Shown here piece after piece: positions 2,093-17,489 of a DNA stretch of 19,052 nt. The notes below the pieces were generated by a model. It had not been told where the DNA came from and ran no database searches. It was given only the letters and a program-made list of their open reading frames with translations. This DNA is from Halococcaceae archaeon (lineage in GTDB: Archaea; Halobacteriota; Halobacteria; Halobacteriales; Halalkalicoccaceae). The DNA is taken from positions 1 to 19,052 of the forward strand of contig SKWB01000359.1 in the NCBI GenBank assembly GCA_007129135.1. The letters run 5' to 3'. Each line of letters starts with the position of its first letter. Positions within the stretch are counted from its first letter, which is position 1. A program made the position numbers and the translations under genes.

Positions 2093-3721
2093 ATGCGTCG
2101 TGTTTGTGCCCTGTTGGTCGCCCTCCTCCTCGTGGTGAGCGGCGGGCCGGCGCTCGCCGTCGCGGCGGGCGGGCCGGTCGCAGCCGACGGGTTGGCAGGT
2201 GGGGAGGGACAGCTCGCGGGCGAGCCGGACGGCGACGGCGAGTGGCGCGAGTACGAACCGGACGACGAACTCGGCCTCGACGGGAGCGAAGAGCTCTCCG
2301 AGGAGGAGCTAGAGGAGGTGATCGACCGGGCGATGGTCCGCGTCGAGGAGCTCCGCGAGGTCGAGTTCGAGGCGCGGCCGCCCGTCGAGGTCGTCACGAG
2401 AAGCGAGTTCCAGGAGGAGTACGACGGGCTGGTCGGCGAGGGGACCGAGAACCAGACCGAGTTCGTGAACGCGAAACACAGGGCGCTGTTCCTCGCCGGC
2501 GACGACGAGGACTCGACGGAGACCGTCGCGGAGAACCAGAACGTCTCGGTCGGCGGCTTCTACTCGCCGGCGACGGACGAGATCGTCGTGATCGTCGACG
2601 ACGAGACGCCCGTGATCGACGAGGTGATCCTCGCGCACGAGCTCTACCACGCCTACCAGGACCAGGAGTGGGACCTCCAGGAGTTCGACGCCCAGACGCG
2701 CGACGAGCGCAACGCCCAGAACGGCCTGATCGAGGGCGACACCGTCTTCATGGAGTTGGAGTACGAACAGCGCTGTGAGAGCGGCGAGTGGGAGTGTGTG
2801 CGTCCGGCGGAGGCGGAGGGGACCGAGCCGGCCGAGGAGGGTCAGCCGGCGAACATGGGGCTGCTCCTGCTCGACTTCCAGCCCTACAGCGACGGACCGG
2901 CGTTCTCCGAACACGTCTTCGAGCGGGGCGGCTGGGACGCCGTGAACGAGCTCTACGACGCACCTCCGGAGACGAGTCAGCAGGTCATCACGCCGGAGCG
3001 CTACCCCGACGACCTCCCGCGCGAGGTCGAGATCGACGACGCCCCCGACGAGGAGTGGGACCGGCTGCGCCCCGAAGAGCGGCCCGACCACGACGTGCTC
3101 GGCAAGGTCTCGATCGCGACGATGTTCGCCGCGCCGCTCTACGACCAGCCGGGCGAGCAGTTCGTCTCGCCCGACGAGTTCCTCAACCTCGGCCCCGACG
3201 GCGAACTCGACGACTTCGACCCGATCAACTACGACGTCGAGTTCGCGACCGGCTGGGACGGCGACCGGCTGCACGTCTACGAGAGCGACGACGGGGAGAA
3301 CGCCTACGTCTGGCGGATCGCCTGGGAGAGCGAGGAGGACGCCGAGACGTTCGTCGAGGGCTACGACGACCTGCTCGCGTACCGGGGAGCCGAGAACGAG
3401 GGCGACGGGCTCTACGTCGCAGCGGACGGGGGCTACGTCGGCGCGTACGACGTCGACCACGACGGCGACGTGGTGACGATCACCCACGCGCCGGACGTCG
3501 AGGCGCTCTCGGCGGTGAACGGAGAGGTCGAACCCGCCGAGGTCGAGGACGACGCCCTCGAGGAGGCCGACGACGAGCCCGAGGAGACGCCCGAGCCCGA
3601 GGAGACGCCCGAGACCGAGGAGGCCGACGACGACGCGGCCGAGGACCAGCCAGGCTTCGGCCTCATCGCGGCGCTCGCCGCGCTCGTGATCGCACTCGCG
3701 CTGCTCGCACGGCGTCGCTGA
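2093..3721 (+). CDS. Hvo_1808-type surface protein, putative zinc metallopeptidase with PGF-CTERM tail
   Basis: A 542-residue secreted protein. Residues 1-26 form a Sec-type signal peptide (MRRVCALLVALLLVVSGG). The mature part is very acidic. It holds HELYH at 182-186 and, 28 residues after the second His, Glu214 in IEGDTVF, a pattern resembling an HExxH...E zinc-peptidase site. Cys228 and Cys235 flank GEW and could form a disulfide. FQPYSDGPAF at 262-271 is shared exactly with the next gene. A Thr/Pro/Glu-rich linker (about 490-515) leads to PGF at 520-522, a hydrophobic helix and the terminal RRR, the PGF-CTERM signal processed by archaeosortase A. The resemblance to the Hvo_1808 family of surface proteins is from recognition; peptidase activity is inferred. 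The start was chosen by the signal peptide and the upstream TATA-like box. The stop lies 1 bp before the next ATG. Confidence 0.9.
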   Translation: MRRVCALLVALLLVVSGGPALAVAAGGPVAADGLAGGEGQLAGEPDGDGEWREYEPDDELGLDGSEELSEEELEEVIDRAMVRVEELREVEFEARPPVEVVTRSEFQEEYDGLVGEGTENQTEFVNAKHRALFLAGDDEDSTETVAENQNVSVGGFYSPATDEIVVIVDDETPVIDEVILAHELYHAYQDQEWDLQEFDAQTRDERNAQNGLIEGDTVFMELEYEQRCESGEWECVRPAEAEGTEPAEEGQPANMGLLLLDFQPYSDGPAFSEHVFERGGWDAVNELYDAPPETSQQVITPERYPDDLPREVEIDDAPDEEWDRLRPEERPDHDVLGKVSIATMFAAPLYDQPGEQFVSPDEFLNLGPDGELDDFDPINYDVEFATGWDGDRLHVYESDDGENAYVWRIAWESEEDAETFVEGYDDLLAYRGAENEGDGLYVAADGGYVGAYDVDHDGDVVTITHAPDVEALSAVNGEVEPAEVEDDALEEADDEPEETPEPEETPETEEADDDAAEDQPGFGLIAALAALVIALALLARRR

Positions 3722-3722
3722 G

Positions 3723-5201
3723 ATGGGCTCACGAGCAGCGGTCCTCGCCGTCGTCGTCTGCGTGGTGCTCGCGGGCTGTACGGCGGTGCCACCCGGGGAG
3801 CTGTTCCCGTTCGGGGAGGACGAGGACGACGACCCGTCGGCGCTCGACCCGGACAGGCCGCTCGGCGAGGTCAGGGGCGTGAGCTACGACGACGACCTCG
3901 GGGTGAACTCGACCGCCGAGCTGAGCGAGGCCGAACGCGAGGCGGTGGTCCACCGGGCGATGGCCCGCGTCGAGGTGATCCGGGGGCTCCAGTTCGAGGA
4001 GGAGGTGCCCGTGGAGGTGATCTCCCGGGAGGGGTTCAGAGAGGAGCGGCGGTTCACCGAGCAGTGGGACGAGGACTACGCGACCTGGAACGACCACCTC
4101 TGGCGGGCGCTCTTTCACGTCGACGAGGAGACGGCCGCCGCCGAGGAGTTCGAGGCGCTCTACGGCGGGGCGGTCCAGGGCTACTACTCCTCGGGCGACG
4201 AGGAGATCGTCATCGTCGCGGACGACCCGGACGCGGTCGCGATCGACCGGAACACCCTCGCCCACGAGCTGCTCCACGCGCTGCAGGACCAGCACTTCGG
4301 GCTGGAGCGCGACCGCTCGTCGCTCGACTCGGAGCACGCCGCGCTGGGTATCATCGAGGGCGACGCGAACTACGTCGAACTCCAGTACGACGAGCGATGC
4401 GAGGACGGCGAGTGGGAGTGTCTCGACCGACCGAGCGCGACCGGTTCCGAGGGCTCGTTCGACTTCGGGCTGCTCGTGACGATCTTCCAGCCCTACAGCG
4501 ATGGCCCGGCGTTCGTCGACCACCGGTACGGGGAGGGGGGCTGGGAGGCGGTGAACGAGGTCTACGACGCACACCCGAGCGCGACGACGGAGGTGATCCA
4601 CCCCGACCGGTACGGCGAGTTCGAACCGACGAACGTGACCGTTCGGGACGAGTCGACCGATGACTGGGAGCGGTTCAACGTGAGCGGCCGCGAGGAGGGC
4701 GTCGAGACGGTCGGCGAGGCGGCGCTCTACGCCAGCTTCTGGTCGAACGGGGTGATCGACCGCGAGCACCTCTACGGGGGCGAGGACCCGCTCTCGCCGT
4801 ACGACTACTCGCACCCGATCACGACCGGGTGGGCGGGCGACCAGCTCGTCCCGTACGAGGGCGAAGAGGGCGAGTACGCCTTCGTCTTCGAGAGCGAGTG
4901 GGAGTCCGAAGGGGACGCCGAGCGGTTCGCGGAGGCGTACGGGGAGCTCCTGGCCGTGAACGGTGCGGACGAAGAGGGGGAGGCCTCGGTGATCGAGCCG
5001 GGCGAGTCCTTCGCCGGGGCGTATCACGTGAGTCAGGACGGGGAGACGGTGACGGTCGTTCACGCGCCGAGCGAGAGCGAACTCGAGGAGGTCCACGGGG
5101 TCGAGGTGGGGGTGCCCGCGTCGCTCGATCGGTCGGAAGCGGTTGGTCCACACCTCGGTATGGGGTCGGACGGATCGGGAACGGCACCGGCGGCCGGATA
5201 G
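3723..5201 (+). CDS. Hvo_1808-type lipoprotein, putative zinc metallopeptidase
   Basis: A 492-residue paralogue of the preceding gene, starting 1 bp after it and so surely in the same transcript. The N-terminus is a lipoprotein signal (LAVVVCVVLAGC) with the lipidated Cys at position 19. There is no PGF-CTERM tail, so the two paralogues use different membrane anchors. The putative zinc site is conserved: HELLH at 181-185 and Glu212 in IEGDANY. The disulfide-candidate pair Cys226 and Cys233 around GEW, and the FQPYSDGPAF block, are also conserved. Spacing between these blocks matches the first copy to within one or two residues, as expected from tandem duplication followed by divergence. The product should sit outside the membrane as a lipid-anchored protein. 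The function is unproven; a surface protease or protein-maturation role is an inference from the HExxH motif. The stop is 5 bp from the stop of the convergent permease gene. Confidence 0.9.
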   Translation: MGSRAAVLAVVVCVVLAGCTAVPPGELFPFGEDEDDDPSALDPDRPLGEVRGVSYDDDLGVNSTAELSEAEREAVVHRAMARVEVIRGLQFEEEVPVEVISREGFREERRFTEQWDEDYATWNDHLWRALFHVDEETAAAEEFEALYGGAVQGYYSSGDEEIVIVADDPDAVAIDRNTLAHELLHALQDQHFGLERDRSSLDSEHAALGIIEGDANYVELQYDERCEDGEWECLDRPSATGSEGSFDFGLLVTIFQPYSDGPAFVDHRYGEGGWEAVNEVYDAHPSATTEVIHPDRYGEFEPTNVTVRDESTDDWERFNVSGREEGVETVGEAALYASFWSNGVIDREHLYGGEDPLSPYDYSHPITTGWAGDQLVPYEGEEGEYAFVFESEWESEGDAERFAEAYGELLAVNGADEEGEASVIEPGESFAGAYHVSQDGETVTVVHAPSESELEEVHGVEVGVPASLDRSEAVGPHLGMGSDGSGTAPAAG

Positions 5202-9116: not shown

Positions 9117-9383
9117 TCAGTCGTCGCCGTACTCGTCCCCGCCGTCGCCCTCTCCCTTTTCGGCTTCGGCTCCCGCGTTCGCATCGGTGGATGCATCACC
9201 GGACTTTTCGGAGGAATCCCTCCCATCGAGAGCTCCGTCCGTATCCGCCAGACACCCCGTGAGGAGGACGACCAGTGCCGTACCGGTGGTGGCGAGGACG
9301 GCCCGTCTGGTGCGGTCGATCCGGGGTGCTCTCGTGCCCGCCGCTCGCCGCTCTATCCCGACCTGTCGCTCTGTGTCGCTCAT
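9117..9383 (-). CDS. Small Tat-type lipoprotein (88 residues)
   Basis: An 88-residue secreted protein of unknown function. The N-terminal 25 residues are polar. They are followed by a twin-Arg pair (RR at 26-27), a hydrophobic stretch and the lipobox LTGC with Cys44, the usual layout of haloarchaeal Tat lipoproteins. The remaining 44 residues are almost entirely Asp, Glu, Gly, Ser and Ala with no aromatic core, so the mature protein is probably an unfolded acidic tail on a lipid anchor. It lies 132 bp downstream of the three-gene pseudoenzyme operon on the same strand, but a minus-strand TATA-like GGTTTATC at 9471-9478 may give it its own promoter with a leader of about 65 nt. No family is recognised. 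Confidence 0.7.
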   Translation of the reverse strand: MSDTERQVGIERRAAGTRAPRIDRTRRAVLATTGTALVVLLTGCLADTDGALDGRDSSEKSGDASTDANAGAEAEKGEGDGGDEYGDD

Positions 9384-9515: not shown

Positions 9516-10676
9516 CTATCGGTCCCCGAGCCACGTCCGAGCGACCGCACCGATAGTCTCCGGATCGATCGTCTGCCCGACCGGCAACAGCCGCACGCGA
9601 GCCGCGAGCCCTCGGTCGCTCGCGTACGCATCCCCGTCCTGGACCACCGGATCGAGCGACGGCCACGCGTCGGGTAAGCGCTCGGCGAGGGTATCGCTCT
9701 CGACGAGCACCGGGAGGGCCGAGGGGCACCAGCCCCGTGGACAGGTGTCGAACAGGGGGGAGACCCCCTCTCGGTCGGCTAGCTCCCAGCGCCACGCCGC
9801 GACGTTCGCCCGGCGGGCCGCGATACACCACTCGGGGTCGACGTGGTCGAGCAGGAGCCGAGAGAGCTTCGACATCGGGACGTCGGTCGACGCGTACGCG
9901 GTCGCCGAACCGCTCCCCCACGACGACGGACGAACCGGTGAGAGCGCGCGAGAGAGCGACGAGACGAGCGGGACCCCCGTCGTCGCCTGCACCGCGGTCG
10001 AGACGCCGTAGCGGGCGTCCCCCGTGGAGAAGGCGTCCCTGACCGACGCGTTTCGGAGATCCGCGCTTCGGATCCCCTCACCGGGAACCAGGGCGGCCCC
10101 GTTCGGCACTCGGAAGGCCGGCGGAAACGAGAGCAGGCCGACGTCGCCGCTCGTCCAGAGCGCCTCTCCGTCCCGGCTGCTCAGCGCCGCGTGTGTGCCG
10201 TCCTCGATCAGACCGGCACCGTGGTCGGTACAGCGATCCACGAAGGCGCTGACGACCTCGGTTTCCTGGGGACGACCGAACGGGTGGGTGAGGACGGCCG
10301 CGAGTACGCCGTCGTCGACGTGCTCCGCGACCTCCTCGGTGGGACTGAGGTCGTCGGCGAGCGGATAGAACCCGGGGGTGAGCCCGGTCGCCCGCACCGC
10401 CTCCGCGAGGACCGCCGGAGCGAGGGCCGGTAGCAACACCACCTCCCCCTCGTAGAGCGACCCGAGCGCCGAGAGCGCGTCGGAGAGCGCCCGCGCTTCG
10501 TGGCCGTAGAGCGCGATCCGGTCGATCCCCCGTTCGGCGTAGAACGGGAACAGGCCGGTCCGGGTCGTCCGCTCCGGACGGCCGACGGTCGGCTCGATCG
10601 AGCCGACCTCCCGCTCGAGGGCGGGTCCGAGCGTCCCGGACCGACCGACCTGCCCCTCGGCGTCCTGGCTACTCAT
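9516..10676 (-). CDS. DegT/DnrJ/EryC1-like aminotransferase fold protein lacking the PLP lysine
   Basis: A 386-residue protein with the fold of DegT-type sugar aminotransferases. Recognisable elements are LIEDGTHAA (156-164, with Asp159 for the PLP nitrogen), SGDVGLLSF (176-184) and the C-terminal small domain starting at VPMSKLSRLLLDH and continuing through the RRANVAAW and LPVLVES motifs. In active members the segment after SF reads roughly HxxK, and that Lys forms the Schiff base with PLP. Here it is FPPAFRVPNG, with Phe188/Arg189 and no Lys nearby. The Lys loss was checked on the minus-strand codons around 10105-10125. Transamination is therefore unlikely; a binding or scaffold role, or dehydratase-like chemistry, remains possible. 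The first 40 residues are extra and look disordered. Its ATG overlaps the stop of the phosphodiesterase-like gene (ATGA), making it the third gene of the operon. Confidence 0.82.
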   Translation of the reverse strand: MSSQDAEGQVGRSGTLGPALEREVGSIEPTVGRPERTTRTGLFPFYAERGIDRIALYGHEARALSDALSALGSLYEGEVVLLPALAPAVLAEAVRATGLTPGFYPLADDLSPTEEVAEHVDDGVLAAVLTHPFGRPQETEVVSAFVDRCTDHGAGLIEDGTHAALSSRDGEALWTSGDVGLLSFPPAFRVPNGAALVPGEGIRSADLRNASVRDAFSTGDARYGVSTAVQATTGVPLVSSLSRALSPVRPSSWGSGSATAYASTDVPMSKLSRLLLDHVDPEWCIAARRANVAAWRWELADREGVSPLFDTCPRGWCPSALPVLVESDTLAERLPDAWPSLDPVVQDGDAYASDRGLAARVRLLPVGQTIDPETIGAVARTWLGDR

Positions 10677-12100
10677 CGTCGCCCCCCGTCGGTCTCGACG
10701 GCCGCGTCACCTGTCGGCTGCGGATAGCTCATCCGCTCCGGCCGGGAGACGACCGGGAGCGGCGTCCCGTCCATTCGGTCCGAGATGGGCAGCGAGAGCG
10801 CGGCGAGAACCGTCGGCGCGACGTCGAAGAGGTGGGCGTCGGAGAGCGCCCGCGGTTCGACGCCGCGGCCGGTCATCGCCAGGTAGCCGGTCGGCGTCCG
10901 ACACGGCGTCTCGCCCCCGTCGGCGAACACCTGACCGCCCAGACTGGTAGAGAGCGATATCCCGTCGTTCGGAACCGCGACGACGTCGGGCGCGTCGTCG
11001 ACGGAGGGTCCCCAGAGGTGTGCCTCCCGTCTGATGACGTCGGCGAACGCCGGATCGCCGTTCGGTGCCGTCAGGTCTCTGAGCGTCTCGATCAGCTCGC
11101 TTCGCACCCCCTCGTACACCTTCTCACCGACGATCCCCTCGGGTTCCCGACCGCGGCGGTTCACCCGGAGGCCGTACTCGGCGGGTGATCTGAGATAGGC
11201 AGTCGAACTCGCGAAGTCGACCGACCGAGCGCCCCCACGCAGCAGCCCTCGTGGGAGGACGCGGCGTGTCCCGCCGATCACCCGCTCGATGGGCGAGCTG
11301 ATCGGCTCGGTAACGCACTCCGACTCGCCGGGTGTCGCCGGCCTGCCGCGACACGGGCCGGCTTCGAGGTATCCCTGACGCCTGAGGAACTCGTTCACCC
11401 TGACCTCGTGGCCACAGGTCGGAGCCAGACCGTACGCGCTCGTCACGACGACGAGGTCGGCGTCGACCACCTCGAGGAGACGACCGACCTCGGAATCGAT
11501 CGCGCGGAAGACCGCCTCGCGGTCCGCGTCCGACTGACCGCCCGACTCGAAGCGGACGATGCCGACGTCGGGTTCGGTTCGGTCGAGCAGGTGGGCGAAC
11601 GCGGCCGACCGTTGGCGTGCCAGAGCGCTCCCGTCGTCGGTCTCCGGTTCGGGGACGAGGCGGTACTCCCCGATCGACTCGCGAACGCGCGCGAGATCGG
11701 CGTCGAGCGTGGGCGCGCGAGGGCACGCGGCGGGGACGACGACGACCGACTCCTCCGGGGTCGCGAACGGGACGTTCACCACGACGCTCCGCAGGCCGTG
11801 GTAGGCGAGGATCTCCCAGAGCGCTGGCTCGCGAGGGGCGTTCACCCCCGTCCGCCGCCAGTCGTAGCCGTCGTAGACGAACGGGCCGAAGACGCCGTGT
11901 TTTCCGGGGTTCGTGCCCGTGTGAAGCGAGGCCCACGTGCTCGTACCGTGGAGGAGGCCCTGTGACCCGAGCGGCCCGCTCGCACCCGTCTCGGCGATCG
12001 ACGATAACACGGGGAGCGCGCCACGGTCGAAGAGCGGGTCGAGGGTCCGGGGACTCGCGCCGTCGACCTCGACGACCAGCGCCCGGAGGGTCGTGCTCAC
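10673..12100 (-). CDS. Type I phosphodiesterase / alkaline phosphatase-like protein with degenerate metal site
   Basis: A 475-residue protein of the alkaline phosphatase superfamily, closest in layout to the haloarchaeal type I phosphodiesterase/nucleotide pyrophosphatase group. The first metal-binding Asp is present (Asp13 in VVEVDGAS), and the WASLHTGTNPGKHG block (56-69) is well conserved. The usual nucleophile Thr four residues before that Trp is Gly52, though Thr53 and Thr55 are near. The second metal motif, normally SDHG, reads TSAYG at 220-224, so both Asp and His are missing. The mid-domain D-x3-H region reads ESGGQSDADRE, also without the pair. RVNEFLRRQGYL at 234-245 follows the expected pattern. 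The start is a GTG at 12100 overlapping the upstream TGA as GTGA. It is probably a non-catalytic relative; the confidence in fold is higher than in the loss of activity. It is the second gene of the operon. Confidence 0.82.
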   Translation of the reverse strand: MSTTLRALVVEVDGASPRTLDPLFDRGALPVLSSIAETGASGPLGSQGLLHGTSTWASLHTGTNPGKHGVFGPFVYDGYDWRRTGVNAPREPALWEILAYHGLRSVVVNVPFATPEESVVVVPAACPRAPTLDADLARVRESIGEYRLVPEPETDDGSALARQRSAAFAHLLDRTEPDVGIVRFESGGQSDADREAVFRAIDSEVGRLLEVVDADLVVVTSAYGLAPTCGHEVRVNEFLRRQGYLEAGPCRGRPATPGESECVTEPISSPIERVIGGTRRVLPRGLLRGGARSVDFASSTAYLRSPAEYGLRVNRRGREPEGIVGEKVYEGVRSELIETLRDLTAPNGDPAFADVIRREAHLWGPSVDDAPDVVAVPNDGISLSTSLGGQVFADGGETPCRTPTGYLAMTGRGVEPRALSDAHLFDVAPTVLAALSLPISDRMDGTPLPVVSRPERMSYPQPTGDAAVETDGGRR

Positions 12101-13974
12101 GGCCGCCCCCGTACGCCCGGTCCGTCGAGCGCTGACCCGTCTTCGGTCCCGCCGACCGTCTCCACGACGGGCATCGAGAGGAACGTGAGTGCGGTGGTGA
12201 GCTCCGTCGTCCTGTCCTTCCCTTCCCCGTGTTCTCGTTCCCATCGTCGGAGCGTGCCCGGGTCGAGGCCGGGGACCTCCCGCGCGAGGTGTCCACGTCC
12301 CTCGAGCGTCCGTCGAGCAGCGGAGGGCTCGTGGAGGGGGATGGGATCAGTCCAGGGATCGTCGCGGAGGTGCTCTCCGGGAGCGCTCTCGCCGCCGACG
12401 TACCGTCGCCAGAGGCTCCGTGCCGTTCCCGCCAGGTACTCTGCGGGAAACGGCCGGGTGAGCGGCTCGCCGCTCCCGGCGTGGGGTATCTCCGCGAGCG
12501 ACGGCGAGATCCGCTCCACCGCACGGGCGATCAGGTTCCCCCGGAGCCGATAGCCGATCGGGATCGACAGCGCGAGGTCGACCATCCGGGCGTCGAGGAA
12601 CGGCGTCCGGTAGGGGAGGGTTCGGGTCAGGCTCAGGTGCGAGGCGAGACCCGGTCCGTTCGACAGGGGCCACCAGCCCCCGCAGTACGAGAGCTCCTCG
12701 AGCGACCCGTACAGCACGCCGTGGTGGGCGATCCCATCGACCCCCCGTTCGAGGTTCGAGGCGAGGATCTCCCCGATCTCGCGACCGTCGACCGGTTCCT
12801 CGGTCGCGCCCCCGGCGAGCCGGTCGGCGTACTCCGCCACCGACCCGATGGGTCGCTCCAGCGGAAGCGCGACCCTGCCGAACCGGTCGTGTTCGACCGA
12901 CCGCGCCGGGAGCCCGGCCGGGCCGAACAGGGCGTCGGCGAACGTCCCGGAGAGCAGCGTATCGACCCGGGAGACGACCTGTCGTTCGAGCCCGGCGAGC
13001 GGCCGCTGTGTCGGGGCGCCGTCGAACCCGGTCAGCTCGTCCGCTCCGTCGAAGATCCGCCTTCCCTGCCGCCCGTCCCGTCGGAGGAGGACGAACTCGT
13101 GACCCGAACGGAGGGCGACGCGTTCCGCGGTTCGCGCCTCGCGACTCATCCAGTCGGCGACGTGAAACGCGGTCGCGTCGGCGTCGAGCGCGGCCAGCAC
13201 GAGCCTGGAGGCGCTCCCGCCCGAGAGCAACACGCCGTAGCGCCGACCGCGCTCGATCCGTTCGACGAGCACCGTCCGCAGCGTCTCCGCTAGCTCGTCG
13301 ATCACGTCCTCGACTGGTCGCTCGCGCGGTCGGTACCGCGGCCTCCAGTACCGGTCCGTCTCCACACGGTCGGTGGCGAGATCGACCGTCGTGACCGTCG
13401 CCGGGCCGAGCGAATGGATACCGGTGAGCGGCGTCGTGGTCCCGAACGTCCGTCCGAACGCGAGGTACTCCCGGGTGATCTCCGGGTCGAACCCGGCCTC
13501 GACACCCGGGTGCGAGGGAAGCTCCTGGACGTCCGTGGAGAAGACGATCGAGCCGTCGTCGGCCCGGGCGCGATAGACCGGCAGCGTGCCGAGGCGATCG
13601 GTGATCAGGTGGGCGGCGTCGGCCTCCCGATCGTAGACGAGGCCGAAGCCGTTGGCGTTCAGTCCCGCGACGAACGCGAGCCCGTGTTCGGCGTAGAGCT
13701 GTGCACAGTACCGGGCGCTGTCGAGGTTTCTCGGTCGGGGGACGTGGCCGAGGCCGCCGCCGACCGCCCGGTCGTCGAAGCCGAACGCCTCGCCGACGAA
13801 CCAGACGAGCGCCTCCCCGACGTGGTACGGACCGGGGGTCCCGAGGCCGGGGTGGGCGGTCGCGTAGACGTCGACCTCCCGATCGCTGTAGCGACTGACC
13901 GAGCGCTCGTTCCGCGCCAGCGACTCCGTGGAGCCGCGGGGATCTCCCCCGATCACACCACAGATCCCGACCAC
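12097..13974 (-). CDS. Asparagine-synthase-like amidotransferase with degenerate active sites
   Basis: A 625-residue protein with the two-domain layout of asparagine synthase relatives. The N-terminal Ntn-hydrolase-like part begins VGICGVIGGD and contains LNANGFGLVYDR and LITDRLGTLPVYRA; the C-terminal ATP-pyrophosphatase-like part starts near 230. The PP-loop, normally SGGxDS, reads SGGSASR at 251-257 (Asp replaced by Ala), and the usual GxGxDE pattern reads GTFADALFG (Glu replaced by Ala). The glutaminase Cys must be residue 1 after Met removal, but the only candidate, Cys5 here, is preceded by an Ile codon with no start next to it. The start is uncertain: GTG at 13974 gives a family-like N-terminus; GTG at 13983 and 14046 (649 residues) are alternatives. 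It is the first gene of the operon; its stop overlaps the next GTG. Amidation activity is doubtful. Confidence 0.8.
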   Translation of the reverse strand: MVGICGVIGGDPRGSTESLARNERSVSRYSDREVDVYATAHPGLGTPGPYHVGEALVWFVGEAFGFDDRAVGGGLGHVPRPRNLDSARYCAQLYAEHGLAFVAGLNANGFGLVYDREADAAHLITDRLGTLPVYRARADDGSIVFSTDVQELPSHPGVEAGFDPEITREYLAFGRTFGTTTPLTGIHSLGPATVTTVDLATDRVETDRYWRPRYRPRERPVEDVIDELAETLRTVLVERIERGRRYGVLLSGGSASRLVLAALDADATAFHVADWMSREARTAERVALRSGHEFVLLRRDGRQGRRIFDGADELTGFDGAPTQRPLAGLERQVVSRVDTLLSGTFADALFGPAGLPARSVEHDRFGRVALPLERPIGSVAEYADRLAGGATEEPVDGREIGEILASNLERGVDGIAHHGVLYGSLEELSYCGGWWPLSNGPGLASHLSLTRTLPYRTPFLDARMVDLALSIPIGYRLRGNLIARAVERISPSLAEIPHAGSGEPLTRPFPAEYLAGTARSLWRRYVGGESAPGEHLRDDPWTDPIPLHEPSAARRTLEGRGHLAREVPGLDPGTLRRWEREHGEGKDRTTELTTALTFLSMPVVETVGGTEDGSALDGPGVRGRP

Positions 13975-14127
13975 GTCACCCACCGCCCGGAAGGGCTCTG
14001 GGCTCCCCGAATCGGCCGTCTTCGACCGCCGGTCGGCGACCCTCACGCCGATCTTCGACTGCGAGCATACCCCTCCCTCGACCTATCGGATGTTTACTAC
14101 TAGTCCGGTAACGCGCGACTATACCCC

Positions 14128-14291: not shown

Positions 14292-14365
14292 GCCGCCTTA
14301 GCTCAGCCTGGGAGAGCACTCGACTGAAGATCGAGCTGTCCCCCGTTCAAATCGGGGAGGCGGCA
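14292..14365 (+). tRNA. tRNA-Phe(GAA)
   Basis: A complete 74-nt cloverleaf can be folded by eye. The acceptor GCCGCCU pairs with AGGCGGC and is followed by discriminator A. The D-arm is GCUC/GAGC around AGCCUGGGA. The anticodon stem CUCGA/UCGAG encloses the loop CUGAAGA with anticodon GAA. The variable loop is CUGUC, and the T-arm is CCCCG/CGGGG with loop UUCAAAU. There is no intron, and CCA is not encoded. A broken second copy follows 31 bp downstream. Confidence 0.97.
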
Positions 14366-14396: not shown

Positions 14397-14500
14397 TTCG
14401 ACCGAAGATCGAGCTATCCCCCTCCCCGCGAGCGACGCGAGCGGGGGCTCGGAAGGCGTCGCTACGCTCGTCTTCCGGTGGTTCGAATCGGTGAGGCGGC
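14397..14500 (+). pseudogene. Broken second copy of tRNA-Phe, interrupted
   Basis: Bases 14397-14422 repeat the anticodon arm and variable loop of the tRNA-Phe 31 bp upstream, with only a few changes (loop CCGAAGA, anticodon position still GAA). Bases 14481-14500 repeat its T-loop and 3' acceptor strand (GTTCGAATCGGTGAGGCGGC; 18 of 20 identical). The 5' acceptor strand and D-arm are missing, and 58 bp are inserted between the two parts, so it cannot be a functional tRNA. Possible origins are tandem duplication with decay, or a remnant attachment site from an element that used the tRNA gene. Confidence 0.75.
14423..14480 (+). repeat. 58-bp GC-rich hairpin element inside the broken tRNA copy
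   Basis: This inserted stretch contains CCCCGC/GCGGGG arms around GAGCGACGCGA, then GGAAG/CTTCC arms. In addition GCGACGC (14432-14438) is complementary to GCGTCGC (14456-14462), so two alternative folds exist. It resembles short structured intergenic elements rather than coding DNA. Whether it is repeated elsewhere in the genome cannot be seen from this window. Confidence 0.5.
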
Positions 14501-14620
14501 GTGTTCCGAGACCGTGAATGCTGCGAGCGAACACCGGCGAGTTCGTCCACGGACGGCGACAGCGAGCCTCTCCCGGCTCTCACGTTCCCGTGTGGGACGT
14601 TCGCATGAACGGTCGCAACA

Positions 14621-14626
14621 TTTATT
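14621..14626 (+). promoter_or_regulatory. TATA-like box of the DUF7504-type gene
   Basis: TTTATT, centred about 32 bp before the ATG at 14656, predicts a transcript starting within a few bases of that codon. It supports this start over the in-frame ATG at 14518, which would lie just past the tRNA remnant. Confidence 0.5.
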
Positions 14627-14655
14627 TTCTTATCCGTTGTCTCTTGGTTAAGAGT

Positions 14656-15351
14656 ATGGTCGAGGAGTGGCGGTCCACCGAACCCGACTACGCGGAGACA
14701 GCGACGCTCGTTCGCGAACTCGACGCGATGAAGCGTCGTGGCTCCGCGCTCCTCGTCGTGGGTTCCGTCCCGGACCGGGTCAGGTCCCGTGCGTGTGAGG
14801 CGCTTCTCGGGACCGACGTCGCCCGTCGTCGGCTGTTCGTCGTCACCGAGGACCGGGAGCCACCGCTCTCCTGTCTCCCGCAGATGCACCGCGACGGCGA
14901 CCACGCACGCGTCGTCGAGTACACCCGGCCCGCCCGTGGGGCGACTGCGACGGCAGCCACGCCGCTGCTGCCGGTCCCGACGCGGACGGTCTCCTGCGGA
15001 CGGCTCTCCGAACTCGGCATCGAGATCTCCGAGTCGATCGAGGCGCTCGACCGGGCTGCCTCCGGGCTCTCCCCGGCGGAACTCCGGCTCTGTTTCGACT
15101 CGCTCGTCCCGGTGCTCGCCTCCTCCGACGAGGTGACCGTCTTCCGGTTCCTCCACCTCCTCTCTCACCGGGTCCGTTCGGTCGACGGGATGGCTCACGT
15201 CCACCTCCCGGTCGAGTCGGATTCGCCCGTCATCGGCCGACTCTCCCCCCTGTTCGACGCCGTGATCGAGCTCTCGGAGACGGAGACGGGGCCGGCCCAG
15301 CGCTGGAGGCTCCGCGATCGGAACGTGGAGACCGGCTGGCTCGCGCTCTGA
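14656..15351 (+). CDS. DUF7504-type haloarchaeal protein
   Basis: A 231-residue cytoplasmic protein that resembles the haloarchaeal DUF7504 group, which has a RecA-like alpha/beta layout. The first strand is SALLVVGSVPDRV (about 32-44), followed by a helix with CEALLG, a second strand RRLFVVTEDRE and a later strand pair EVTVFRFLHLLSHRVR. No Walker A (GxxxxGKS) is present, so ATP binding is not supported. Relatives are often found near regulators and chemosensory genes, but their job is unknown. The start at 14656 is chosen because a TATA-like box lies just upstream and because the N-terminal extension from 14518 has no family character. The gene is convergent with the artA partner gene, with the stops directly abutting at 15351/15352. 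Confidence 0.7.
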   Translation: MVEEWRSTEPDYAETATLVRELDAMKRRGSALLVVGSVPDRVRSRACEALLGTDVARRRLFVVTEDREPPLSCLPQMHRDGDHARVVEYTRPARGATATAATPLLPVPTRTVSCGRLSELGIEISESIEALDRAASGLSPAELRLCFDSLVPVLASSDEVTVFRFLHLLSHRVRSVDGMAHVHLPVESDSPVIGRLSPLFDAVIELSETETGPAQRWRLRDRNVETGWLAL

Positions 15352-16350
15352 TCAGATCCCTGGGACGTCCCAGTGGATCTCGTCGGCCCGGTGCCACTCG
15401 TCGTACGCCGCGAGCCCCTCGCCCGTTACACCCGTGAGCCTGAGGTCGTGGTAGAGCGTCGAGTGGGTGTAGTCGAGGAAGGTCACCGCGACAGTCAGTC
15501 CGCCCTCGAGAAACGCCGTCGCGAGGCCGTTGTAGACGTGTTTGTGTCGTCTGTCGCGCACCCAGAACGCGGCGACGGGCACCGTCTGTTCGGTCGCGGG
15601 TGTGGCGTGGAGCGCCTCGGCCGCTCGGTAGGAGAGCTCCCAGCAGAACAGCCCGGTGTGGCCCCGCTCCGTGAGGGAGTCGAGGTCGGTCGACCGCTCG
15701 AACGGTGCTCTGAGGTTCACCCGACCCATGAGCACGTTGTCCTGGATCGAGCCGCCGACGTAGCGGGGAACGTCGTAGCTCCCGTGCTCTCGAAAGCCGT
15801 CGACCAGCCCGTAGACGAGCGCCTCGGGATCGGCGGGATCGGCGTTCGCGAACCCGAGTACGGTCTCGGGTGCGACCGGCTCGGCGATCGGTCCGCGGAG
15901 CGCTCCGGTGATCACCGGTCGGTGCTCGGCGTTCCCGACGCGCTCGAAGAACGCCTCCGGCTGGTAGAACTCGTAGCGGTGGTCCCCGCTCCCGATACTC
16001 GTCCCGTCCTCGACGAGCGCGACGAACGCCCCACCGAGGCCGTGTTCGTCGTCCGCTTCGCGGACGGCCACAGCCGTCCGGGGCACCGAGCGCCACTCGC
16101 CGTCCGCGGGTCGGAGCCACGCGCGCTCCTCTCCGGTCGTCGCGAGCAGCTCGTAGCCCCCGTCTTCGCCGCCGACCGCCACCGATCCGAGCTCGAGGCG
16201 TTCGTCGAGCAGCCCGCCGACGTCCTGTGCTACGAGGTTCGTCCCGCCGTCGAGGTGGCCGTAGCCGAGCAGCACGTTGTCGACCGCCCGAAACGACCCG
16301 AGCGTGAGGAGGCCGCCGCCGATCAGTGAGAGCGCCCGTCGTCGGTTCAT
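15352..16350 (-). CDS. Unrecognised exported or membrane-tethered protein downstream of artA
   Basis: A 332-residue protein, not recognised. The N-terminus MNRRRALSLIGGGLLTLGSF has a basic start and one hydrophobic segment, reminiscent of a Tat leader or an uncleaved membrane anchor. The rest is soluble-looking. It has a long internal region with GYELLATTGEERAWLRPADG, a conserved-looking HKHVYNGLATAFLEGGL block near 265-285 and YTHSTLYHDLRLTG after it. The gene starts 33 bp after the stop of archaeosortase A on the same strand, so it is very probably cotranscribed. The pairing of a sortase-like enzyme with an exported accessory protein recalls EpsI-type partners of bacterial exosortases, but no motif of that family was found and the analogy is only positional. 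Confidence 0.75.
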   Translation of the reverse strand: MNRRRALSLIGGGLLTLGSFRAVDNVLLGYGHLDGGTNLVAQDVGGLLDERLELGSVAVGGEDGGYELLATTGEERAWLRPADGEWRSVPRTAVAVREADDEHGLGGAFVALVEDGTSIGSGDHRYEFYQPEAFFERVGNAEHRPVITGALRGPIAEPVAPETVLGFANADPADPEALVYGLVDGFREHGSYDVPRYVGGSIQDNVLMGRVNLRAPFERSTDLDSLTERGHTGLFCWELSYRAAEALHATPATEQTVPVAAFWVRDRRHKHVYNGLATAFLEGGLTVAVTFLDYTHSTLYHDLRLTGVTGEGLAAYDEWHRADEIHWDVPGI

Positions 16351-16383: not shown

Positions 16384-17307
16384 TCAGTCGTCGCTCGGAG
16401 CCGGGGTGACCGTCGGCGTCCCGAGGAGGTCGTACTCGGTCCCCGTGAGCAGGTAGAGGAGGTCTTCGACGATCACGGCGAGCTCGGGCAGCAGTTTGAG
16501 GACGACCCAGAAGAGCCCCAGCAGCGCGAGGACCGCGAGCCCCTGCGAGAGGATCCGATCCGCGACGAAGAAGGAGACACGGACGGGGTCGGTCAGGCCG
16601 AAGACCGCCATCACGGGGCCCGCGAGCGCCTCGTGTGAGAAGAGCTGTTCGCCCGAGGAGTACGCGATGAAGACGTTCCGTGCGATGTTCAGCACCCAGA
16701 TCGCAGCGAGTGAGAGCCCGAGGGCGGCCAGTCGTCGCCTCAGCGGTGCGCGAACCGCGGCGGTCAGCCCGCCGAAGATCGCCATGCTCCCGATCCCCGT
16801 GCAGGCGAAGACGATCCGGGTCGAGTACGACTGTCCGGTCGCGGTCTCGGTCCCCGGGAAGACGAAGAGGCTCTGCAGGCTCCGGTCGTCGGTCACGAAC
16901 TCGTACTCGGCCCCGAGGGCGGCCATCCCCCACTCGGTCTGCGCGGCGACGATCTCGATCAGGCCGTCGTGGAGCGGGGCGATCGTCTCGAACGGGATGT
17001 AGATCGCGAGCGCGACGGTCACCGCCCGGGAGAGCACGAGCAGCGAGGTGCGACCCCGCGAGAGGTGGTAGGCGACGGCGAGGCAGGCCGGGACGCCGAC
17101 CGCCACGAGGACGGTCTGGATCACGCTCCGGTGTTCGAACGCGAAGAAGGGGATCATCAGCAGCCAGAACGCGGCGAAGAGCACCCACGCGCCGGCCATC
17201 GCCCGCCGACCGAACGAGCGGTCGTGCCACTCGGCGCCGCTCGCGCCGAGGAAGGCCGCGACGACCACCCAGAGGAGGGGACCGGTCACCGCGGAGAGGT
17301 CGGTCAT
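16384..17307 (-). CDS. artA: Archaeosortase A
   Basis: A 307-residue membrane protein with about eight hydrophobic segments and the exosortase/archaeosortase signature: Cys169 in IVFACTGIGS, Arg210 in WVLNIARNVFIA and Arg251 in VADRILSQ. In Haloferax volcanii ArtA, the equivalent Cys and two Arg residues are reported as essential. The enzyme removes C-terminal PGF-CTERM segments from secreted proteins and links them to membrane lipid. Two substrates are visible in this window: the surface protein ending at 3721 and the one at 18575-19052. The ATG at 17307 is chosen because a TATA box (17331-17337) lies about 27 bp upstream, giving a leaderless mRNA. The partner gene follows after 33 bp. The C-terminus is a soluble acidic tail. 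Confidence 0.95.
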   Translation of the reverse strand: MTDLSAVTGPLLWVVVAAFLGASGAEWHDRSFGRRAMAGAWVLFAAFWLLMIPFFAFEHRSVIQTVLVAVGVPACLAVAYHLSRGRTSLLVLSRAVTVALAIYIPFETIAPLHDGLIEIVAAQTEWGMAALGAEYEFVTDDRSLQSLFVFPGTETATGQSYSTRIVFACTGIGSMAIFGGLTAAVRAPLRRRLAALGLSLAAIWVLNIARNVFIAYSSGEQLFSHEALAGPVMAVFGLTDPVRVSFFVADRILSQGLAVLALLGLFWVVLKLLPELAVIVEDLLYLLTGTEYDLLGTPTVTPAPSDD

Positions 17308-17330
17308 AGCTCGTAGGTGGCGATCCGTCG

Positions 17331-17337
17331 GTATATG
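17331..17337 (-). promoter_or_regulatory. TATA box of artA
   Basis: The plus-strand sequence GTATATG reads CATATAC on the minus strand, centred about 27 bp upstream of the ATG at 17307. It predicts a leaderless transcript for the artA operon. Confidence 0.6.
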
Positions 17338-17356
17338 TTTGCTGACCGTTTGCGTA

Positions 17357-17489
17357 GCCGTCGCTCGTCGGTCGGGCGCGATAAGAAACCGCGGTGGGGA
17401 AGGGCCAAGCATGCGTCCGGTATCCATGTACGTAGACGCGGTTTCGCGCGACGAGGCCGGCGGCGGCCAGCAGCGCGATCGGCGCGACG
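17357..17489. repeat. Direct repeat, left copy (decayed PGF-CTERM gene 3' end)
   Basis: This stretch aligns along its length with 18491-18632. It starts with a shared CGCTCGTCGGTCG stretch, continues through a shared CCGCGGTGGGG block and ends in a 57-bp core (17433-17489) that matches 18576-18632 at 55 of 57 positions. The two copies flank the toxin-antitoxin pair. The gap 17308-17624, 317 bp without an intact gene, holds the artA promoter, this repeat and the toxin-antitoxin promoter. Confidence 0.75.
17433..17489 (-). pseudogene. Remnant of a PGF-CTERM surface-protein tail
   Basis: On the minus strand this encodes APIALLAAAGLVARNRV, matching the end of the intact PGF-CTERM gene (ALIALLAAAGLAARNRV) at 15 of 17 residues. 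The stop TAA of the intact gene is TAC here, the PGF residues and everything upstream are gone, and the downstream T-run is broken. It is a gene relic left of the toxin-antitoxin pair. Confidence 0.65.

Follow-up and report, generated by a model that had tools for sequence, protein, structure and literature searches.

Single pseudoenzymes have been widely described (as excerpts of PMC10211241 set out), and dead paralogues that activate live ones, the so-called prozymes, are known for the AdoMet decarboxylase and deoxyhypusine synthase of trypanosomatids, according to excerpts of PMC5201418 and PMC3663545. The locus analysed here resembles these systems in that a catalytically dead paralogue is retained alongside a live one, but prozymes concern one enzyme each, with proven heteromers, whereas the present case involves three folds from a single operon, for which heteromers would be a prediction. 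A second point of comparison is the XrtA/PEP-CTERM toolkit (with the TIGR03108 amidotransferase and the TIGR03019 FemAB protein), in which a sortase-type gene likewise has AsnB-like and FemAB-like genes in its neighbourhood; the sortase there is XrtA, whereas here it is archaeosortase A, beside a dead trio without FemAB. Scores to both of these families are far under their cut-offs (72.3 bits versus 816.9 for TIGR03108). According to excerpts of a study on type IX secretion (PMC7468200), genes of the AsnB and FemAB types are linked with sortases and with amino-acid-modified linking sugars. Among open-licence papers, no literature was found on the combination of archaeosortase, PGF-CTERM and asparagine synthase, while searches on haloarchaeal pseudoenzymes and on Natronorarus turned up translation factors only and nomenclature only, respectively. 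The remaining system for comparison is the intact operon of Halalkalicoccus, which is like the trio in its place (by tRNA-Phe, the DUF7504 gene and archaeosortase A) and in the order of the three genes, and unlike it in that the site residues are kept and that FemAB and a 701-aa protein are present.

The window, i.e. the whole stretch of 19,052 nucleotides that was analysed, is an entire contig of a haloarchaeal assembly (70.9% complete). As the preliminary description had it, three leftward genes with the folds of an AsnB-like amidotransferase, a type I phosphodiesterase and a DegT aminotransferase lie coupled in it, which was borne out by profile matches and by the GTGA and ATGA overlaps (Table 1). 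The trio was sampled in three genomes of the genus Natronorarus, namely that of the window, Natronorarus salvus (2 contigs, 99% complete) and a MAG labelled Halococcaceae archaeon CSSed162cmB_235 (SKXI01000408.1; hereafter G293), and was found in all three, so that the expectation of a gene order shared with other genomes holds throughout the genus as sampled. Seven Halalkalicoccus genomes match the dead DegT-like protein at just 28-36%, and four protein clusters match it (the window, one ENA, one JGI and N. salvus) among 8000 scored candidates. Since the class searches covered 292 genomes taken from a larger group and the cluster search scored those 8000 candidates, this narrow spread is a lower bound.

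Table 1. Features of the window around the dead trio
Feature	Position	Strand	Remarks
DegT-like pseudoenzyme, 386 aa	9516..10676	-	ATGA overlap with phosphodiesterase-like gene
DegT-like codon 186 = Pro	10119..10121	-	PLP lysine in relatives
Type I phosphodiesterase-like pseudoenzyme, 475 aa	10673..12100	-	Phosphodiest (PF01663), E 2e-20; GTGA overlap with AsnB-like gene
Phosphodiesterase-like codon 401 = Arg	10898..10900	-	presumed metal ligand His in relatives
Phosphodiesterase-like codons 222-223 = Ala-Tyr	11432..11437	-	presumed metal ligands Asp-His in relatives
Phosphodiesterase-like codon 52 = Gly	11945..11947	-	presumed nucleophile Thr in relatives
AsnB-like pseudoenzyme, 625 aa	12097..13974	-	Asn_synthase, E 2.4e-11
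AsnB-like codon 255 = Ala in PP-loop	13210..13212	-	Asp in relatives
tRNA-Phe	14292..14365	+	adjoins trio; also N. salvus trio, and intact operon in 6/6 Halalkalicoccus loci
DUF7504 protein, conserved neighbour	14518..15351	+	Pfam, E 1.9e-56; synteny
332-aa protein, unassigned family, conserved neighbour	15352..16350	-	N. salvus and 4/6 Halalkalicoccus loci
Archaeosortase A	16384..17427	-	TIGR04125, 305 bits versus cut-off 75; synteny
PGF-CTERM surface protein, C-terminal end (gene cut by contig end)	18575..19051	-	TIGR04126, 46.8 bits versus 24.5

In the AsnB-like protein, the PP-loop reads SGGSASR in the dead copies versus SGGSDSR in relatives, i.e. the Asp expected of a glutamine-hydrolysing asparagine synthase is replaced by Ala in 3/3. 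Among the 120 homologues listed (of 128 matches), 116 have Asp at this position, three have Ala (all of them the dead copies) and one, P0100, is without the motif; Gly occurs there in L069, i.e. the residue has been lost in the wider AsnB-like family beyond the dead copies as well. With regard to the start of the protein, the relatives P0006 and P0007 open with MVGIC or MVAIC, which corresponds to GTG at 13974 (an in-frame GTG is also present at 14046). Counted from 13974, the Cys of the window's protein is residue 5 rather than the N-terminal catalytic Cys; none of the 120 listed homologues has Cys at residue 2, while 62 have it at residue 5.

The phosphodiesterase-like protein matches its profile (PF01663) at 74.1 bits, against a cut-off of 23. 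By analogy with the alkaline phosphatase superfamily, we take D14, T53, D197, H201, D244, H245 and H453 (numbering of the intact N. salvus protein) to be the nucleophile and the six metal ligands. Among 51 related loci (several of which are one gene found twice), 49 spell DTDHDHH at these seven positions and the other two (L115 and L156) are truncated, whereas all three dead copies have DGG[QR]AYR. Six of the seven are thus changed, although columns 197 and 201 fall in a gapped stretch and are less sure. The losses are concentrated at the site, with 6/7 site residues lost against 59/164 of the other invariant residues (one-sided p 0.013). Overall, the dead copies retain 106/171 of the residues that are invariant among the intact operon proteins, compared to 81/106 for AsnB and 37/65 for DegT. 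In the Halalkalicoccus genome G060 (apparently H. jeotgali B3), the intact-type phosphodiesterase gene is itself split over two frames (L081, 10715-12596); it has Arg at the last aligned site and was excluded from the invariant-residue count.

The DegT-like protein has the fold and profile of the DegT/DnrJ/EryC1/StrS aminotransferases, and Pro at the position of the PLP lysine in all three dead copies, versus Lys in 30/30 related loci (nine of which are the canonical operon genes themselves; P0003 was outside the lysine check). The PLP Lys of an intact DegT relative was aligned by HMMER onto a Lys of TlmJ. Catalytic residues that had merely shifted were sought on the alignments, and apart from a Thr one residue on (T53) in the phosphodiesterase-like protein and a lone Lys (K270) in the DegT-like one, the key residues were lost. 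The claim that each of the three proteins lacks its defining residues therefore stands by alignment to intact relatives, with one amendment: the glutaminase half of the AsnB-like family looks vestigial family-wide, and the loss of its Cys is, judging from the homologues, older and separate from the loss event of the trio.

That the frames had nevertheless been retained intact was also part of the preliminary description, and this agrees with the substitution pattern. The dN/dS of the trio is 0.29-0.47 over all genus pairs (0.31, 0.31 and 0.42 for the three genes of the window versus N. salvus), which is far under neutral (simulated neutral change yields 0.98 with this estimator), with 0.32-0.33, 0.25 and 0.47 for the intact copies and 0.24-0.33 for three flanking genes. 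The frames are stop-free over 21-25% nucleotide divergence, whereas neutral simulation of 20% change gave a mean of 15.9 stops and 0/2000 stop-free runs. For each gene, the dead copies form a single clade with 100/100 support, the stems of which measure 0.94-2.09 changes per column. Also, the gene overlaps are conserved across all three genomes, which suggests that the trio may be co-translated. An assembly artefact was rejected, as N. salvus and a separate MAG carry the identical residues. The low lysine content (4 in 1486 residues of the trio versus 14 in 1567 of the intact N. salvus set) is not exceptional, since 20000 random gene triples included 420 with a content equally low. The trio is real, conserved and unusual; its members lack the conserved catalytic motifs by sequence, which is how excerpts of PMC10211241 define a pseudoenzyme, and it very probably consists of three co-retained pseudoenzymes.

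In the six Halalkalicoccus loci on long contigs (the genomes compared include G060, G134, G195 and G201; the contig of a seventh locus, G292, is too short to show the order), the order is without exception DegT, FemAB, phosphodiesterase, AsnB, tRNA-Phe, the 701-aa protein, DUF7504 and archaeosortase A, next to which comes a protein that matches the PGF-CTERM protein of N. salvus. The loci of the window and N. salvus read dead trio, tRNA-Phe, DUF7504, 332-aa protein, archaeosortase A and PGF-CTERM protein. FemAB is absent from the dead-trio loci (3/3 fetched), and the 701-aa protein is missing from the Natronorarus loci. At the other end, tRNA-Val lies beyond DegT in 5/6 Halalkalicoccus loci and beyond the dead DegT gene in G293. 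From this synteny beside tRNA-Phe and archaeosortase A it follows that the dead trio is the positional counterpart of the intact DegT-FemAB-phosphodiesterase-AsnB operon. The residue losses, as well as that of FemAB, predate the split of the three sampled Natronorarus members. The call on origin rests on synteny, because the trees leave open a descent from the genus's own intact copy: in the DegT tree the dead copies group with Halalkalicoccus at 91/91, which is less than full support, and the alternative grouping is not rejected (p-AU 0.082), and in the AsnB tree neither grouping is (p-AU 0.087 and 0.209). The operon of three put forward at first is thus indeed made up of three genes, but as the remnant of a four-gene operon at an archaeosortase locus.

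Of the neighbours, the 332-aa and 701-aa proteins (window 15352-16350; L078 11980-14085) gave no Pfam match at the thresholds used and no NCBIfam match up to E 0.1, and the PGF-CTERM proteins tested had surface-glycoprotein scores under the cut-off of each named S-layer family. Upstream of the trio, the window and N. salvus share an identical block of 32 bases, which may be a promoter. A second, partial copy of tRNA-Phe (14398-14422, matching at 23/25 bases) comes 78 bases after the full gene and is possibly a trace of integration or duplication. Synteny between the window and G293 seems to end at an 88-aa lipoprotein-like ORF (9117-9383), the G293 relative of which was called as 197 aa (L139 4208-4801; 74% alike, dN/dS 0.73). 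Further away, two adjacent proteins (2093-3721 and 3723-5201), related by eye, each contain an AHEL-H motif, and the second has zero lysines in 492 residues.

The trio and live paralogues coexist in N. salvus, where an intact four-gene operon lies ~80 kb away, and in the window's genome, where the intact four-gene copy is spread over two short contigs. A polysaccharide flippase gene adjoins the intact genes in L055 and L060, and the intact operon is presumably a surface-sugar pathway. A second AsnB-like gene lies near the first in L038, L040, L044, L049 and L051, and the pair overlaps in all of these but L038.

The explanation that is favoured, if tentatively, is that the trio acts as a set of non-catalytic partners of the intact pathway. 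Starting from a four-gene operon beside archaeosortase A, Natronorarus lost FemAB along with key site residues in each of the three remaining proteins; these would have kept their folds and perhaps their interfaces. They could then modulate the intact paralogues by binding to them, in the manner of prozymes, or alternatively hold the same surface-sugar intermediates for them, with the intact copy carrying out the chemistry. The changed residues in 3/3 genomes, the constraint, the fully supported clade on long stems, the shared place and the intact copies all support this, as do the dead paralogues already known to activate live ones (in the same excerpts of PMC5201418 and PMC3663545). It is weakened by G293, in which an intact AsnB-like gene was seen and an intact DegT gene was not (its genome is 61% complete), and by the DegT-like gene being the least constrained of the trio (0.42-0.47), though the intact DegT copy is similar. 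In addition, some DegT-fold enzymes function without the lysine (examples are ColD and E1 dehydrase mutants at a His that is found there naturally; the trio has Pro). The more far-reaching version is doubtful: in one lineage, a whole pathway operon would have become a shadow complex of three unrelated folds, itself without catalysis, which would regulate the live copy of that pathway or serve it as a scaffold, perhaps at the site of archaeosortase and surface protein.

It is also possible, if not what we would choose, that the trio stands on its own at the archaeosortase locus, along the lines of the preliminary description, as a complex for binding, sensing or scaffolding that would hold a ligand such as a nucleotide-linked amino sugar and leave the intact enzymes untouched. 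The conserved overlaps, with the co-translation they suggest in all three genomes, would fit such a complex, as would the conserved place by archaeosortase A and the PGF-CTERM gene in the window and N. salvus, and the DegT fold being that of nucleotide-sugar enzymes. That place, however, is also held by the intact Halalkalicoccus operon and may therefore simply be inherited. A rebuilding of the old sites of the phosphodiesterase-like and DegT-like proteins for new chemistry is unlikely. C229, H231 and C400 of the former, near the old ligand positions in sequence, the Thr just past the lost one, and K270, the single lysine of the latter, are common to the three dead copies and absent at those columns in the intact ones; but the proximity is one in the linear chain, the predicted phosphodiesterase model being poor (pLDDT 52.7; best Foldseek match 3szy, TM 0.41, rmsd 14), and simultaneous losses in three unrelated folds are more simply explained as lost chemistry. 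Finally, a decaying relic with frames open by chance, for which the loss of FemAB and the long stems would speak, is very unlikely given the lack of stops where neutral change would bring many and a dN/dS that resembles that of the intact copies.

An operon whose three products, each of a different fold, jointly lost their catalytic residues, with order and constraint kept, would test the reuse of a pathway as a non-catalytic machine. Since N. salvus and Halalkalicoccus hold the dead and the intact state at one genomic place, the derived and the ancestral-like proteins are directly comparable.
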